Below are positions 5,242 through 11,877 of a stretch of 12,152 nt of DNA, piece by piece (position 1 is the first letter of the stretch; every line of letters begins with the position of its first letter). Below the pieces are notes generated by a model. It was given only the letters and a program-made list of their open reading frames with translations. It was not told the DNA's origin and did no database searches. The position numbers and the translations under genes were made by a program. The DNA is from Candidatus Saccharimonadota bacterium. Lineage in GTDB: Bacteria; Patescibacteriota; Saccharimonadia; Saccharimonadales; Saccharimonadaceae. The DNA lies in assembly GCA_017421685.1 (NCBI GenBank), contig JAFOHW010000032.1, positions 1 to 12,152 on the forward strand, in the 5' to 3' direction.

Positions 5242-8200
5242 TTACGCTACAAGTCTCCTTACTAATGAGCCGAACTCTCTATAAGGTCCTTCGTTCCCTG
5301 TTGTTCTCAGGAATTCACGTATTGCGTCTTTGTCGTTGTCTGGGAGTCGCCTCCAAGATTCTCTAAGATACTGAACAGCAACATCAGGCTGGCTGGCACT
5401 TTCGGCAGGAGTTAATCCTAGGAAATATAGTATTCCACCCCGTCCAGCTATGCCCCTAAGCTCATCGGACATATTGCTCAAGAACTCATTTTTTCGTCGC
5501 CTTAGCGCTTCTTGGTCATCGGGGGTCTGGGTTTCTCCCTGACCCGATTGGGCTTCTTGTCTGGCGCGTTCTTCTTCCTCTCGTCTGGCACGTTCTTCTT
5601 CCTCTTGTCTGGCGCGTTCTTCTTCCTCATCGCCCTCCAAGGCGTCTATTAAATCATCTGTATCTTCTGGAGGTTGCGATGCTCCTCCTTCGCCAGGCGT
5701 ATTCGGAAGATCGGAATCTCCTCCGTCATGATCGATAGGAAGGTGATCGATAGGAAGGGTCGGGGGAGTCTCTCCTCCGTTACCATTTCCGCCAGGAGTT
5801 TCGATTGGAGGGTTGTTGCCTCCGCCATTGCCACCAGTTCCTGGAGGAGTTTCGATTGGAGGGTTGTTGCCTCCGCCATTGCCACCAGTTCCTGGAGGAG
5901 TTTCGATTGGAGGGTTATTGCCTCCGCCATTGCCACCAGTTCCTGGAGGAGTTTCGATTGGAGGGTTATTGCCTCCGCCATTGCCACCAGTTCCTGGAGG
6001 GACTGGTTGTCCACTCGGAGTTTGGCCTTGACTTCTGCCTAAACTCGGTCTAGGAGCAAACGGCAAGGTAACACCGCCGGTATCAATATCTCTTTCTCTT
6101 ACGAAATCATAAATAGCTGGAGTTTCTTCGATATGAGGAACAGATACAGTAACCGTACCGTCCCACCAGCTCGAGTCATAATGTTCTGCGGCGTATGAGG
6201 TGACACTCATATATCCGTCCCCTCTAACATCGTCGATGCTAGCTACGAATATGGTACCAGGAGCTTCACCGTTTGGACCAAGAGGGATATTTACGCCATC
6301 AACGGTCTGCAAATAACCGTCGTGAACAGGCATAACAACTTCCCCATTTACAATCTCGTGCTCTATTTGATAATGTTCTCCATTCTCCAGCTCAATAAAC
6401 CCTCCTATTCCATTAGGACGACTTACGTCTTGGGCAAAGTTCCCTATTCTTCCGCCCGCAGTGGTTGATACATAGCCACTCATTCTGGTGTGATATCCTA
6501 CGCCCTCGTCATAATACAAGCGTAGTTCTGCTCCGTCCGATTCCGCAGTTCCATTATTAAACCAATCAAAATCATAAAACTTAGTATTGGTGCCCGTATC
6601 AGAAAGGTTTATTTGCTCATCGGAGTAAGTAACCTGAATACTTGGATCTCGAGTCAAAACCCTACTATATCCTTCCCTATTTAGCTCTTCCATTCTCGCC
6701 GCATCATCACCTGAGACCCCCATGACTACATTTTCTCCTCGGCCACCAATGGTTGCAAGTATGGTCTCTTTTGCGTCTTCATTGTTAGGTCGGATAATTA
6801 TGCCATGTCTTTCGGCTATCTTCTCAAGAGCACCAATTCTCGATGGGTCGATAATTGCTCTTATTTCTTGTGAAGCAAAGAAAGTGACGGCTCCAACAAG
6901 TGCAGTTTTTGCCGCTTGTTTCAAGGCGAGAGCATTTTTAGTTTTATTGAAATCAGCATCTTTTTCGTCGACACTTTCCACAATCTTATTTTGAATAACA
7001 GCTTCTACATCATTTAGGCCTTCTCTATCCTCCTCCGAAAGAGACCTCACGGCTTCTGCAATAGCTACATCGAGAGCTAGTCTTTCCTCACCAATTTTTT
7101 CTTCAGAAGAATAGGCTATTAGGTCTTTCTGCTCTGAATCTGAGAACCTTACGCGAACCCTCGCTTCAGCGATAGCATTAAGGATTGATTGCCTATCTCC
7201 TGATTCTACAGCGTTCGCCAAGTTAGTGGTCAGTTCGTTAGCTGGACGCAAGTCATACATTGTTCCGCCTATCCTGGTTTCGTATTTTGAACCTTCGTAT
7301 GCGCGATTAACGGCAAGGTTCTTCTGCATGGTGGCTCGATCCTCGATGATGCGACCTCGCTCACGAACAAATTGAGTTGCGGATGAAATAGCGATACCTG
7401 CTCCTGCGCCTACGCCCGTACCCAGAAGAGCTTTCGATCCTGTCTTAGCGGCAGTCTGAGTTAACGAGACCACCGAACCGAGAACGCCTGCGATTATTTC
7501 CGGAGGTATAAATTGTCCGAATCTGCTGTTCTCATATTTATCAACTAGCCTATCAATACCGTCACGATGTTCTTGAGTTCTAGCGTTGTTTCGAACATCG
7601 GCATTATAGAGTTTGAATCCTTCCATAACCCTACCGACAGAAGCACCATGCTCTACATATTCGCGAGCTTGGATGGCGAGTCCACAACATTGCTCCAATA
7701 GTGATGCGTTTAATGGAGGATTATCTCCCCTATCCCTAGATTCAGCTATGAGGCGCTTTGCGTCGTTCCTAAGATTTAAGATCGCATCTTCTAAACTACC
7801 GCCTTCAGGAATTTCAGCTTCTGCAAACTTCGAAATAAGATCCTTAAAGACTTCAGTAGTTTTAGCATCAACCTCGGTTACCTTTTCGCCTTGACCTTCT
7901 CCTCCTACATTTCTGTAAATTAAATTTTCGAATCCTTCTTCGGTCATTCCTCGTGCGATTCTTGCGCGAGTGGTTTCATTTCTACTAGCGAGATAAGTAT
8001 ATATATTGGTCTGCTTTCCCCCAATAGTAACTTCACGTTCGCCTTCAAAAATTTCTCGTTCGTACTTTCTCTGATAATATCTCGCAAACAAATTATGTTT
8101 CCAGATACGCTTAATAATATTTTTTGTAGATTCCGCCTCGGTATTCAACTCTTCTTTAGCGAAATGCCTAGCTAAATCTTTGGCATCCCAGGTATGGTCA

Positions 8201-9306
8201 ATATTGACGCCTACTAATGGTCCTGGAGTTTCTGGCTCTTCTGGAGGTTCTGGAGCAGGAGGGAGTATCCCGAAAGGTTTTGGAGCAGGAGGGAGCTCTC
8301 CGAAAGGTTTTGGAGCAGGAGGGAGCTCTCCGAAAGGTTTTGGATTTGCTGGATCAGGTTCTGGATCAGGTGGAACTGGATTTGGATCTACTGGCGTTGG
8401 CTCTGGATCGGGTGGAACTGGATTTGGATCTACTGGCGTTGGCTCTGGATCAGGTGGAACTGGATTTGGATCTACTGGCGTTGGCTCGGATTCATCTATA
8501 TCTTTTGGTGCGTGAGGATAAAGAACCCAATCAATATCTTCATTGCTCTTGCCTCCTTTGCTTTCGCCAGCACCATAAATACCGTTTTTTCCAGCACCAC
8601 CAAATCCCATGCGACGATCACCTATAAAAGGTTCGTTCCTTCTTTGGTCTTTATACATTTTGTATACTTCTGACTGCTGAATATTGCTAACTATTTTCGG
8701 CAGATTTTGAGCTAATTCCTCTGCCATTCTACTGCGTTTTTCATTATAGAAATCTTCGTCTTCTTTTCGTCTTTTACTGAAGTCTTCTATTTCACCATAT
8801 TCTTTTTTGTAAGTGCCTCCTTTTTGGTCTCCACTGGGGTATTCTGCCCCTTTTTCTGAGTGTTGTCGTCCAGTTACTTTAAAGATTTTCCTTCTTTTTT
8901 TAAAGTTTTCCATCTCTTTTGCTCGTTTTTGCTGGAATTTTTCATCTAATTCAGAAAAACGCGGGTCAGCTACATATAGCATCTCCTCTAACTCTCGTTT
9001 GGCAGTAGTAAGATCTTCTATCGTTCCTTCTTGAATCGTGGTATGTCTTGCCATCGCTTTCATCACAGCGTCTCTCTTCAAAACATATCTTTCATAACAT
9101 AGTGCAAGATTCAATTTAATGACTTCTTTATCATCTGGTGTAAGATTAACTACCTTAGCAACTCTTTCGAGTTCGCGCCTAGTAAACTCTTTTGCTCTTT
9201 CTTTTTCCTTTTTTATCTCCTTACCGTGGTCGGAAAGACTATCCCATTGACTAGCCTGCTGGGGCTGTTCTCCTGGATTCTTTGACTGAGTTTCTGGATT
9301 ATTCAT
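5242..9306 (-). CDS. Giant repeat-containing protein of unknown function (1354 aa)
   Basis: I do not recognise a family. Residues 1-270 are highly charged and mostly helical (Lys/Glu/Arg). Residues 274-315 are three copies of EPTPVDPNPVPPDP and 323-352 three copies of KPFGELPPAP, a stiff proline-rich linker. A helical region (365-600) is followed by two hydrophobic stretches, about 603-620 and 624-647 (the second glycine-zipper-like, GTGVGAGAG), and a third at about 799-813. Residues 890-1065 look beta-rich, with many Tyr, Gly and Trp. Then come four copies of PPGTGGNGGGNNPPIET (1103-1170), an acidic stretch, three EEEERAR(Q/R) units (1227-1250) and a helical C-terminal domain (about 1263-1354). 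There is no N-terminal signal peptide. The start has GGAGGG about seven bases upstream, and only 3 bp separate it from the stop of the small gene before it, so translation is probably coupled. A membrane-associated or cell-contact structural protein is one possibility; no catalytic motif is visible. Confidence 0.9.
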   Translation of the reverse strand: MNNPETQSKNPGEQPQQASQWDSLSDHGKEIKKEKERAKEFTRRELERVAKVVNLTPDDKEVIKLNLALCYERYVLKRDAVMKAMARHTTIQEGTIEDLTTAKRELEEMLYVADPRFSELDEKFQQKRAKEMENFKKRRKIFKVTGRQHSEKGAEYPSGDQKGGTYKKEYGEIEDFSKRRKEDEDFYNEKRSRMAEELAQNLPKIVSNIQQSEVYKMYKDQRRNEPFIGDRRMGFGGAGKNGIYGAGESKGGKSNEDIDWVLYPHAPKDIDESEPTPVDPNPVPPDPEPTPVDPNPVPPDPEPTPVDPNPVPPDPEPDPANPKPFGELPPAPKPFGELPPAPKPFGILPPAPEPPEEPETPGPLVGVNIDHTWDAKDLARHFAKEELNTEAESTKNIIKRIWKHNLFARYYQRKYEREIFEGEREVTIGGKQTNIYTYLASRNETTRARIARGMTEEGFENLIYRNVGGEGQGEKVTEVDAKTTEVFKDLISKFAEAEIPEGGSLEDAILNLRNDAKRLIAESRDRGDNPPLNASLLEQCCGLAIQAREYVEHGASVGRVMEGFKLYNADVRNNARTQEHRDGIDRLVDKYENSRFGQFIPPEIIAGVLGSVVSLTQTAAKTGSKALLGTGVGAGAGIAISSATQFVRERGRIIEDRATMQKNLAVNRAYEGSKYETRIGGTMYDLRPANELTTNLANAVESGDRQSILNAIAEARVRVRFSDSEQKDLIAYSSEEKIGEERLALDVAIAEAVRSLSEEDREGLNDVEAVIQNKIVESVDEKDADFNKTKNALALKQAAKTALVGAVTFFASQEIRAIIDPSRIGALEKIAERHGIIIRPNNEDAKETILATIGGRGENVVMGVSGDDAARMEELNREGYSRVLTRDPSIQVTYSDEQINLSDTGTNTKFYDFDWFNNGTAESDGAELRLYYDEGVGYHTRMSGYVSTTAGGRIGNFAQDVSRPNGIGGFIELENGEHYQIEHEIVNGEVVMPVHDGYLQTVDGVNIPLGPNGEAPGTIFVASIDDVRGDGYMSVTSYAAEHYDSSWWDGTVTVSVPHIEETPAIYDFVRERDIDTGGVTLPFAPRPSLGRSQGQTPSGQPVPPGTGGNGGGNNPPIETPPGTGGNGGGNNPPIETPPGTGGNGGGNNPPIETPPGTGGNGGGNNPPIETPGGNGNGGETPPTLPIDHLPIDHDGGDSDLPNTPGEGGASQPPEDTDDLIDALEGDEEEERARQEEEERARREEEERARQEAQSGQGETQTPDDQEALRRRKNEFLSNMSDELRGIAGRGGILYFLGLTPAESASQPDVAVQYLRESWRRLPDNDKDAIREFLRTTGNEGPYREFGSLVRRLVA
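5557..5628 (-). repeat. 3 x 24-bp in-frame tandem repeat (EEEERAR-Q/R)
   Basis: There are three contiguous 24-bp units encoding EEEERARQ, EEEERARR, EEEERARQ (residues 1227-1250 of the giant protein). The outer two units (5557-5580 and 5605-5628) are identical; the middle one has two substitutions. They encode a charged, probably single-helix segment. Confidence 0.9.
5797..6000 (-). repeat. 4 x 51-bp in-frame tandem repeat (PPGTGGNGGGNNPPIET)
   Basis: Four contiguous 51-bp units encode residues 1103-1170. The units at 5797-5847 and 5848-5898 are identical to each other, and so are those at 5899-5949 and 5950-6000. The two pairs differ by one silent base (gttgttgcc against gttattgcc on the plus strand). 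Near-identity at the DNA level points to recent duplication. The encoded Gly/Asn/Pro-rich stretch should be flexible. Confidence 0.95.
8251..8340 (-). repeat. 3 x 30-bp in-frame tandem repeat (KPFGELPPAP)
   Basis: Three contiguous 30-bp units encode residues 323-352. The units at 8281-8310 and 8311-8340 are identical. The unit at 8251-8280 differs by three bases in a short stretch and encodes KPFGILPPAP. Confidence 0.92.
8362..8487 (-). repeat. 3 x 42-bp in-frame tandem repeat (EPTPVDPNPVPPDP)
   Basis: Three contiguous 42-bp units encode residues 274-315. The first and third are identical, and the middle one has a single base change (cggg for cagg on the plus strand). A degenerate partial unit (EPDPANP) follows, then the 30-bp repeat. 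The encoded segment is a proline-rich, extended linker. Confidence 0.93.
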
Positions 9307-9726: not shown

Positions 9727-10794
9727 TTATTTTGTGATTGAGAGGGAGATTTTTCGACCCTCTTTATCGATGTCTAAGACCTTAAAGCTCTTTCGCTCGT
9801 TTAGAGTGAAGATTTTTTCCGGATCAACGTCGGAGCCTTCACCAAGTTCAGAAACATGAACCAGAGCTTCGACGGCTGGGGAGATTTGGACAAAAGCGCC
9901 AAACGGCGTAATTCTCGTAATCGTTCCTTCGACTTTCGAGCCCTTCTTTAGGCCTTCAACTTCGGAAATCCAAGGATCTTCAACGAGTTGTTTCATGGAT
10001 AGAGATAGGCGTTCCTTATCAATAGCGATAATTTTAGCTTCAATAGTATCGCCAACTTTGACATAATCGGAAGGATTATTAACTCGCTCCCAAGAAATTT
10101 CGGAGATATGGATTAGTCCTTCAATCCCATCAACATTAACAAAGACGCCGAAATCGACAACTCCAGTCACAACTCCCTTGATAACATCGCCAACCTTAAG
10201 TTCAGCAAAGCGCTCCGCTAAACCGTCCTTAATCGCCTCTTTTTCAGAGAAGATAAGCTTGTTTTCTTTCTTGCTTGCGTCGAGGATACGAGCCTTAATC
10301 GGCTTTCCGACGAGAGAGTTTAATCTTTGGAGAATCTCATCCTTATCAGCAGAGCCGACTCGAGGATAATGTTCGGCCGAAAGTTGGGAAACTGGCATGA
10401 AGCCACGAATTCCTTCGTATTCGACAAGAAGTCCGCCTCTATTAGCATCGAACGGAGTAACTTCAACGATCTCGCTATTATCTAATTTCGCCTGGATTTC
10501 GTCCCAGCCTTTATCTTTTACAGCTTTGCGAAGCGAAAGTAGAACATAGCCATCATTCATCTCTGAATCAATGACAGAGGTCGTAACTTCATCCCCAACC
10601 TTAAGATTTCGGGCAAAAGAAACTTCGCGCCTCGGGACAAGGCCAACGCCCTGCGCTCCAAGATCAATTAGTATTTCGTGTTTTTTGACAGAGAGGACTG
10701 TTCCGCTAACGGTATCTCCTGTCATGATTTTCTTAGACGAATCTGTATTCTCAGCTAACAGTTCATCCATAGTTAGTTTTTTGGCATTTGCCAT
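9727..10794 (-). CDS. rpsA: Small ribosomal subunit protein bS1 (four S1 domains)
   Basis: This is a 355-residue protein with four S1 RNA-binding (OB-fold) domains, at about residues 25-90, 106-184, 200-269 and 285-355. Domains 3 and 4 are the most canonical (DFGVFVNVDGIEGLIHISE and PFGAFVQI...ALVHVSEL). S1 binds mRNA on the 30S subunit and helps initiation on poorly structured or weak sites. E. coli S1 has six domains; four-domain forms are usual in many other phyla. I start it at ATG 10794 (MANAKKLTMDELL), with AAAGGA upstream at a rather long spacing of about 12 bases. ATG 10827 is in frame and would add eleven residues, but it has no Shine-Dalgarno and its extra codons contain the AAAGGA. 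A strong terminator follows the gene, and an elaborate structured leader precedes it. Confidence 0.95.
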   Translation of the reverse strand: MANAKKLTMDELLAENTDSSKKIMTGDTVSGTVLSVKKHEILIDLGAQGVGLVPRREVSFARNLKVGDEVTTSVIDSEMNDGYVLLSLRKAVKDKGWDEIQAKLDNSEIVEVTPFDANRGGLLVEYEGIRGFMPVSQLSAEHYPRVGSADKDEILQRLNSLVGKPIKARILDASKKENKLIFSEKEAIKDGLAERFAELKVGDVIKGVVTGVVDFGVFVNVDGIEGLIHISEISWERVNNPSDYVKVGDTIEAKIIAIDKERLSLSMKQLVEDPWISEVEGLKKGSKVEGTITRITPFGAFVQISPAVEALVHVSELGEGSDVDPEKIFTLNERKSFKVLDIDKEGRKISLSITK

Positions 10795-10846
10795 AGTTAA
10801 TTTAATTCCTTTCTTAGGCCCATTCATAAGCTAATATTCGATTGAG

Positions 10847-10973
10847 GCGGGTCCTGTCCGAATACCTTTTTCTCGGGCCGCTCCGGGCCGCTCGACCCTT
10901 CGGGTCGTCCGCGTCCCAAGGGGCGGTCTGGCCAAGTCTTAGGCCCTTCGAAAAAGGTATTTCGACCACCCGC
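10847..10973 (-). ncRNA. Unassigned structured RNA / rpsA leader element (long inverted repeat)
   Basis: The arms at 10847-10879 and 10942-10973 are near-perfect inverted repeats. On the plus strand the left arm is GCGGGT, a mismatched patch, CGAATACCTTTTTC, then GGGCC; the right arm carries GGCCC, GAAAAAGGTATTTCG, then ACCCGC. Between them are a 6-bp hairpin (CGACCC/GGGTCG, 10893-10907) and a smaller one around CCC-AA-GGG (10909-10926), so the RNA could form a long stem capped by a multi-branch junction. Two tandem copies of CGGGCCGCTC lie at 10874-10893. The element is much more G+C-rich than its surroundings. A strong minus-strand promoter (11037-11065) would transcribe it into the rpsA leader, ending 53 bases before the rpsA ATG. 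There is no terminator after it on either strand. I found no SRP RNA apical GGAA motif; 6S-like RNA cannot be excluded. Confidence 0.55.
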
Positions 10974-11004: not shown

Positions 11005-11036
11005 TATGAGCTAGTGAATGAGCCTAAACTTCTATA

Positions 11037-11065
11037 ATTATAACAAAACCTCTTGAAAATGTCTA
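11037..11065 (-). promoter_or_regulatory. Strong promoter reading into the structured element and rpsA
   Basis: On the minus strand TAGACA (11060-11065), a 17-bp spacer, and a perfect TATAAT (11037-11042) with an extended-10 TG motif (TGTTATAAT) predict a start near 11030. The transcript would carry about 235 bases of leader before the rpsA ATG. A second TATAAT overlaps on the plus strand (11033-11038, palindrome TATAATTATA) but lacks a -35. Confidence 0.75.
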
Positions 11066-11103: not shown

Positions 11104-11877
11104 ATGTATTTAGTTGTCGATATTGGAGGTACGAAAACTTTAATTGCGCTATTTTCGAGACGAGGACGGGTTATTCGGAGGATTAAGTTTAAGACCCCAC
11201 AAGGCGCGAAAACTTTCTTGGCCGAGCTAACTAGATATTTAGAGGATTTCAGAAAGTATAAAATCAGCGCATTAACAGTGGCGATCCCTGGTCTTGTACA
11301 AAAAAATTGTTCAGTTAAATTTGGGAATCGAAACTGGGACAATATTGATATTCTTACTCCCTTAAAAGAGTTGTTCGCTTGTCCGATTTATTTTGAAAAT
11401 GATGCAAATCTCGCGACGCTATATGAGTCTTTTCGGCTTCCTGGACGAACGGTATTTTTAACCTTTTCAACTGGGGTTGGAGGCGGTATCGCAGAAAAGA
11501 ATCGGGTTCTGCCGGAGTCGGCCGAGTTTGAACCTGGACATAAGATATACGAGTATAGCGGAAAGCGAAAAGAGTGGGAGGATATTGCCTCCGCTAAGTC
11601 CATCGGGGATTTTTATCACGTCGATCATGCTACGAAATTGAGAAAGAAGGAGGTTATGGAGGATATCGCAAAGAGAATCTATTTAGGAATTCCCGATATC
11701 ATAGAAACATATAATCCTGACACTATTATCCTTGGGGGACCTTTAGGGAAAATTTTTAAACTTTATTCTAAATATCTTCCCCAAGACTTAAAGGTTAAAT
11801 TACGTCGTCCTAAACGTCCTAATGAGTCGGTGATTTATGGGGGATATCTCTATGCAAAGCGAAAGGAACGGGAGTAA
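11104..11877 (+). CDS. ROK-family sugar kinase-like protein without the zinc cysteines
   Basis: This is a 257-residue member of the ROK/ASKHA fold (glucokinase, N-acetylhexosamine kinase and relatives). The phosphate-1 loop is DIGGTKT (6-12). The sugar and catalytic site FENDAN has D100 as the expected general base. STGVGGGI (122-129) is the phosphate-2 loop, and EPGH (143-146) is the ROK sugar-contacting Glu/His. ILGGP (209-213) is the adenosine motif. The zinc motif CxCGxxGCxE that normally follows GH is replaced by YSGKRKEWED, so no cysteine ligands remain. The protein is also shorter than the usual ~300 residues. Activity as a sugar kinase is likely but not certain. No Shine-Dalgarno precedes the ATG; TAGAAT (11092-11097) ends six bases before it, so the mRNA may be leaderless. 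The metalloprotease gene follows 14 bp downstream. Confidence 0.85.
   Translation: MYLVVDIGGTKTLIALFSRRGRVIRRIKFKTPQGAKTFLAELTRYLEDFRKYKISALTVAIPGLVQKNCSVKFGNRNWDNIDILTPLKELFACPIYFENDANLATLYESFRLPGRTVFLTFSTGVGGGIAEKNRVLPESAEFEPGHKIYEYSGKRKEWEDIASAKSIGDFYHVDHATKLRKKEVMEDIAKRIYLGIPDIIETYNPDTIILGGPLGKIFKLYSKYLPQDLKVKLRRPKRPNESVIYGGYLYAKRKERE

Follow-up and report, generated by a model that had tools for sequence, protein, structure and literature searches.

The window, meaning the whole 12,152-nucleotide stretch of DNA analysed here, belongs to a Candidatus Saccharimonadota genome of 643,773 bases in 70 contigs and carries rpsA, the gene for ribosomal protein S1, on its minus strand. The 80 best named relatives of this protein all come from Candidatus Saccharibacteria, mostly of the ruminant gut, and include Candidatus Nanosyncoccus alces. 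The gene most likely starts at the ATG at 10794 rather than at 10827, because a good Shine-Dalgarno sequence lies upstream of 10794 and the proteins of relatives begin there. The features of the region, all on the minus strand, are as follows.

9727-10794 (-): rpsA, ribosomal protein S1, 356 aa with four S1 domains (protein comparison, Pfam)
10807-10812 (-): Shine-Dalgarno sequence AAAGGA, unpaired in the predicted fold (sequence and fold)
10813-10826 (-): 3' arm of the leader hairpin, UGAAUGGGCCUAAG, immediately 5' of the Shine-Dalgarno sequence (fold; covariation across leaders)
10847-10973 (-): window copy of a dispersed palindromic element, consisting of an outer module GGGUGGUCGAA...UUCGGACAGGACCC, inner arms and a core (fold, model R1)
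10861-10872 (-): 3' side of the inner arm, helix 1 of the model (the same 12 pairs as the 5' side)
10873-10949 (-): conserved core, GAAGGGCCUAAGACUUGGCC ... GGCCCGGAGCGGCCCGA, split by a nested repeat (common to the inspected copies)
10892-10928 (-): second repeat of family B, 37 nt, nested in the core's apical loop (recurs in other surroundings)
10950-10961 (-): 5' side of the inner arm, helix 1 of the model (12 pairs, two-sided changes at 12/12 in 35 distinct copies)
11015-11028 (-): 5' arm of the leader hairpin, UUUAGGCUCAUUCA (fold; covariation across leaders)
11037-11065 (-): putative rpsA promoter, TAGACA-17-TATAAT with TG preceding the -10 box (pattern scan, 11/12 matches)

Divergent from rpsA, a ROK-family kinase gene recognised by Pfam occupies 11104-11877 (+), and the start of a similar gene seemingly, by eye, lies upstream of rpsA in many relatives. 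A further ORF of 1354 aa at 5242-9306 (-) contains repeated VDPNPVPPDPEPTP and PPIETPPGTGGNGGGNN blocks and has no Pfam match at E<=0.001.

A sequence-only reading of this DNA had singled out 10847-10973 as a structured, G+C-rich RNA in A+T-rich surroundings, and the descriptive part of that reading stands. Specifically, G+C reaches 67% in 10850-10949 against 28-36% in the adjoining 100-base windows on both sides. The rpsA strand (10973-10847) folds to -66 kcal/mol, compared with -46.9 +/- 3.9 for 200 dinucleotide shuffles, none of which is as good (z -4.95), and the plus strand folds to -71.7 kcal/mol (z -6.79). The near-consensus promoter is present as a sequence, with the 11/12 matches listed above, and the arms are, as stated, no simple duplication: their sequence differs from site to site, with complementarity kept. 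That reading overlooked two things, namely that the 127-nt stretch is repeated in the genome and the genus, and that it lies within a further stem (11028-11015 with 10826-10813), which reaches as far as the Shine-Dalgarno sequence.

The repetition begins in the genome itself, where a 94-nt sister copy without the nested repeat (G000:C46:16686-16779) aligns in two pieces of 93 and 96% identity to the outer parts of the window copy, and where a 26-base piece of the nested middle is matched at C33. A first scan of 60 relatives gives matches at E<=1 in 42 genomes, many of them possibly due to chance, and the strong ones lie at varied places in genomes of the same genus. A covariance model, R1, was built from an alignment (A2) of eight full copies, including that of the window, and its match there (10858-10963, 84.8 bits, E 5.8e-21) is thus to one of its own builders. 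Under stricter filters, which lose weak matches, R1 finds the family at E<=0.001 in 90 of 147 genomes of the genus and gives no match in the other 57; this genome holds six matches, and another as many as 20. Across the order, searched with the same filters, seven of 197 genomes match at E<=1e-5: six are of the same genus and the seventh, G329, represents another genus of the family (E 8.3e-6). The element family is almost restricted to a single genus of Saccharibacteria.

On the rpsA strand, the core shared by these copies measures about 46 nt and approximates to UUCGAAGGGCCUAAGACUUGGsCnAGCGsCCCGGAGCGGCCCGAGAA, with variants in which another pairing helix takes the place of the GGGCC/GGCCC helix. 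In 20 of 47 copies, identified by a pattern that misses the window's variant, GGGUGGUC, the arms are enclosed by an outer module GGGUGRC...GGaCAGGACCC. Conserved terminal inverted repeats were not found; the arms vary by site, and the outer GGGUGRC/GGACCC module alone is shared. The nested repeat has a distribution of its own: all 37 nt recur in different surroundings at three loci (L010, L011, L012), a 16-nt part of it with at most two substitutions appears at four more (L004, L021, L022, L026), and L257 shows a nesting related to that of the window copy.

The pairing of the element is strongly maintained. Among 35 distinct copies, 96.5% of pair cells hold standard pairs (76.2% after shuffling), and two-sided changes occur in 17 of 23 pairs (11.8 in shuffles), with a covariation score of 0.552 against 0.171. 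Sliding of the partners destroys this signal; the alignment used, A3, was fitted to the structure, which favours the result. Helix 2 of the core has two-sided changes at four of its five pairs. Pairing also often extends from the arms into the host flanks. Beyond the model and module, the complementarity of a flank with its own partner has a median of 7.1, compared with 3.0 for swapped flanks, and in 16 of 47 copies it is higher than the 99th percentile of swaps. With a score of 5.5, against a 95th percentile of 6.0 for swaps, the window copy is unexceptional in this respect.

Copies lie both within and outside ORFs. Fifty flanked copies, drawn from the strongest matches rather than at random (30 from the genus search, 16 further ones from other genomes, three from this genome and the window copy), were classed by position. 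Thirty-four lie wholly within ORFs of at least 100 aa and leave the frame open, 24 in the orientation of the ORF and 10 opposite to it; this call is mechanical save for ten hosts supported by Pfam, and the ORFs of L241 and L249 are doubtful. The other 16, including the window copy, lie outside, three of them (L155, L160, L162) overlapping an ORF end. All ten host proteins submitted to Pfam match conserved families: LigA, an RlmD-like relative of tRNA U5-methyltransferase, GatB, QueA, MiaA, MurB, Obg, YchF, and a class I and a class II tRNA synthetase, which we take to be IleS and LysS. The inserted peptides include, for example, SFEGPKTWASAPERPEE and SFEGPKTWASAPERPE. In the RlmD-like gene, the residues encoded by both arms resemble, by eye, those of element-free relatives. 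A second type of element, which shares the outer module, contributes two in-frame copies of the peptide TTGDAAWGTPDGASATAGENAAAGP to the IleS-like class I tRNA synthetase of L141. The occurrence of the core in unrelated genes, in both orientations and in several frames is as expected of a mobile or formerly mobile DNA element and hard to square with a cis-acting S1 sensor.

LigA provides a series of orthologues with and without inserts at one site, between NIPL and VEVRGE. In a set of 31 sequences (the 30 best from 57 matching genomes, among which is the query's own, and L153, which was added for having an insert), this site holds segments of 117-186 nt in 16 and of at most 72 nt in 15. Judged by eye from their folds, 15 of the 16 long segments are palindromic, with several core types. 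In five orthologous inserts that share a core type, eight of 36 pairs in coding DNA have two-sided changes, amounting to 12 two-sided cells against 4.5 in shuffles (0/500 as high); the count of pair types is unremarkable (343/500 shuffles as high). As further observations at this site, L174/L178/L181/L185 and L182/L187/L194 carry additional in-frame palindromic core types unlike that of the window, and the segment of similar length in L195 is a short EYD-type repeat and not a palindrome.

The rpsA leader itself has a different, conserved structure. In the predicted fold of the window, 11028-11015 pairs with 10826-10813, the Shine-Dalgarno sequence is single-stranded, and the 127-nt element forms a branch inside the 164-nt loop of this outer hairpin. 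Comparison of the window with the rpsA leaders of the 80 named relatives allows the hairpin to be recognised in 80 of 81 leaders. A script finds arms like UUUAGGCUCAUUCA...UGAAUGAGCCUAA with at least 9/12 pairs in 65; another 15 fit a compact pattern (e.g. GUUUUUGAGCCCCUUAAGGGGUUCAAAGGGAAGG), defined by sequence with its pairing judged by eye; and L090 shows the 3' arm alone in the 300 nt read. Across 38 distinct arm pairs, which include L095 and L099 (class 1 by script, compact by eye), 98% of cells pair. Two-sided cells number 51, whereas 1000 shuffles average 11.4 and none is as high; this comparison overstates covariation because the leaders are related to each other. The number of pair types is not unusual (165/1000 shuffles as high). 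The stem begins 3-13 nt past a -10-like box in 65 of 81 leaders, as located by a stem finder that misses the compact class, and it ends at a Shine-Dalgarno sequence that is canonical in the window and in the leaders of relatives. The outer hairpin, which lies close to the predicted 5' end of the mRNA and directly adjoins the Shine-Dalgarno sequence, is likely the functional part of the leader and may protect the mRNA 5' end, control initiation, or both. A DNA operator was also considered for the outer inverted repeat and rejected, as its arms stand at very different distances in different leaders (spans of 42 to 148 among the leader arm pairs listed, with a 164-nt loop in the window).

Conservation of the upstream region in relatives, which the sequence-only reading had named as a check on a functional RNA, divides between the two structures: the outer hairpin is recognised in 80 of 81 leaders, and the 127-nt core (at most four substitutions) in that of the window alone. 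The only other core match at the 80 named loci belongs to L129 and falls further downstream, within coding sequence. Eight other leaders carry, in the same loop, an element with the same outer module (GGGUGAC...GGCAGGACCC) and a different core, which is the second type also found in frame in the L141 tRNA synthetase; pattern marks on L053 and L107, produced by a lax pattern, were judged false by eye. The leaders of L086 and L130 contain what look by eye like diverged elements. Leaders with an inserted element keep the basal stem.

The available data are best accounted for by a model in which the 127-nt structure is a small palindromic DNA element, mobile now or formerly, that was inserted into the loop of the rpsA leader hairpin, and we hold this with considerable confidence. 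Against it, neither a transposition event nor, in a search for Y1 transposase, a mobilising enzyme came to light. Such hairpins would do little harm where length is free, whether in a protein loop or in that of the rpsA leader, and this tolerance, together with several frames that lack stop codons, could explain why the elements persist. The effect of the insert on S1 synthesis is probably small, since it merely lengthens the stem and leaves the stem base and the unpaired Shine-Dalgarno sequence unchanged. How the arms arose is a separate question, to which our confidence in the insertion does not extend. Probably template switching in the course of DNA replication makes them or keeps them perfect, one flank being copied into the other as its reverse complement. 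This step deserves no more than moderate weight, because insertion into existing hairpins is a live rival.

In that rival, the elements are ordinary MITEs whose transposase prefers existing hairpins, so that the complementary arms pre-date the insertion; the origin of the arms is the sole point on which it departs from the model preferred here. In L193, whose LigA gene carries no insert, a 12-bp hairpin occupies the insertion site, insert-free rpsA leaders already form a hairpin, and the arms in the RlmD-like gene encode residues like those of element-free relatives (by eye), all of which suits pre-existing arms. The other 14 short LigA segments, however, have no comparable stem (that of L192 is weaker), and the arms have changed in step in orthologous LigA copies. 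The transposase family looked for, Y1 (PF01797), is moreover found in two of 60 genus genomes, missing from the other 58 and absent from this one (G000). We regard pre-existing arms as a serious contender with somewhat less than an even chance. The accessible portions of PMC2229807 describe MITEs such as Correia/NEMIS and ERIC (127 bp) as small palindromes without a transposase of their own, some of them transcribed or fused to ORFs. In these respects, as far as that source describes them, the present family is similar. It differs in that a conserved terminal inverted repeat is not seen, that the site-specific arms blur the element's boundaries, and that a transposase partner was not found in the Y1 search of 60 genus genomes. 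A link to REP/RAYT elements was also considered and is unsupported, given Y1 transposase in two of 60 genus genomes and none in this one.

The preferred model can be taken a step further, to a class of elements whose ends are made afresh at each site: fold-back DNA synthesis would copy the host flank as an inverted arm without a dedicated transposase, and cores would nest, exchange and be read in frame through core proteins. We put this forward tentatively, as a proposal more likely wrong than right. Related processes are known from template-switch hairpins and from Nematomorpha mitochondria, in which, according to the available text of PMC8794818 and PMC6649704, templated mutation makes or keeps perfect inverted repeats and long palindromes occur in coding DNA. 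Inverted repeats and long coding palindromes are thus common to both, as described in those parts; in contrast, a core is conserved across sites here, and a shared core goes unmentioned in the portions of those papers available to us.

Among described elements, the closest kind is the Rickettsia palindromic element (RPE), and similar elements have been reported in Wolbachia. RPEs are dispersed palindromic repeats of about 105-146 bp that form a long stem-loop, lie between genes and in frame in conserved protein genes, and have also been reported inside RNA genes, according to the accessible parts of PMC2229807 and PMC10969869. The family in the window shares the dispersed long stem-loop and the in-frame insertion in conserved genes attributed to RPEs there. 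The arms here are, in contrast, site-specific, whereas RPEs are listed in those parts with 12-bp terminal inverted repeats; the present elements also belong to a different phylum and have several cores, some of them nested, and the likeness drawn here is one of description. For Saccharibacteria, the PMC articles searched yielded no description of a palindromic element, and one may exist elsewhere.

It is also conceivable that the rpsA leader loop is a landing site whose elements have been put to use, for instance through a longer 5' stem that stabilises the mRNA, which would be compatible with the insertion model. The loop holds such elements in at least nine of 81 leaders, namely that of the window and the eight with the same outer module, with L086 and L130 diverged-looking and the basal stem kept. 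The remaining leaders, however, do not match the module pattern, and LigA shows the same recurrence at one site without a leader role, so that tolerance suffices. Recruitment of this kind accordingly seems quite unlikely.

Much less probable still is a role for the 127-nt structure as a sensor specific to rpsA, which would bind S1, or report the state of the ribosome, and repress S1 translation. The proposal of a leader sensor in the sequence-only reading was right in that the rpsA leader is structured and matches no Rfam family. Located between a strong promoter and rpsA, the element does form part of the predicted leader, in a loop where elements recur in other leaders. The 127-nt part, however, is very unlikely to be a cis-acting S1 sensor, since it is a dispersed repeat whose core is absent from the other 80 leaders and sits within many unrelated ORFs in both orientations. 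E. coli S1 has six S1 domains, against four in the 356-aa protein of the window. According to the available sections of PMC10931766, autorepression by S1 in E. coli relatives acts through an mRNA leader that lacks a canonical Shine-Dalgarno sequence; a canonical one abolishes repression, and domain 6 appears indispensable. Autoregulation by S1 thus exists in gamma-proteobacteria, and a structured leader of the same gene is common to both. The hairpin here, in contrast, ends at a canonical Shine-Dalgarno sequence, and the mechanism described in those sections needs a weak one as well as domain 6. An S1-autoregulatory leader of the E. coli type, which the earlier interpretation had invoked, is therefore unlikely. 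In a survey of 20 ribosomal leader candidates (PMC7247131), the main text, as available, names neither rpsA nor Saccharibacteria, Patescibacteria or CPR. Finally, a free-standing RNA of 6S or SRP type, the main alternative of the sequence-only reading, would fit the long interrupted stem and the strong promoter upstream, but it is scarcely credible given that 10847-10973 has no match to any Rfam family even at E<=5, that many copies lie within ORFs, and that a pattern scan finds no terminator-like site on the minus strand between the structure and rpsA. At a lax threshold, an Rfam scan of the window gives five matches, among which a tRNA at 809-880 alone exceeds its gathering score.

These findings extend in-frame palindromic elements, best known from Rickettsia, to core proteins of Saccharibacteria with reduced genomes (LigA, GatB, MurB, Obg, tRNA synthetases and others). 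The inserted and empty orthologues constitute a natural series for testing how hairpins originate and are maintained by templated mutation. The findings also carry a warning, as strong covariation, commonly read as evidence for a functional RNA, may be seen in a repeat present within genes in both orientations. The conserved rpsA leader hairpin, in turn, has no Rfam match in the window and is a candidate for the control of S1 synthesis.

Outside the genus, a hairpin flush with the Shine-Dalgarno sequence is seen in four (L262-L265) of 24 rpsA leaders and has another sequence; start codons are misassigned in several of these 24 loci, and counts alone are used. In at least 12 of the same 24 loci, from other genera of the order, a short hairpin such as GGAGUCU..AGACUU-AUG instead lies between the Shine-Dalgarno sequence and the start codon (L266-L269, L271, L273-L275, L280-L282, L284), a layout unlike that of the window's genus. 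Within the relatives' assemblies, four contain two full-length rpsA matches each (G035, G026, CAMZAW with L075 and L088, and CAMJSX with L117 and L120); these paired matches are about 89-91% identical to the query and could be paralogues or reflect mixed strains in the MAGs.
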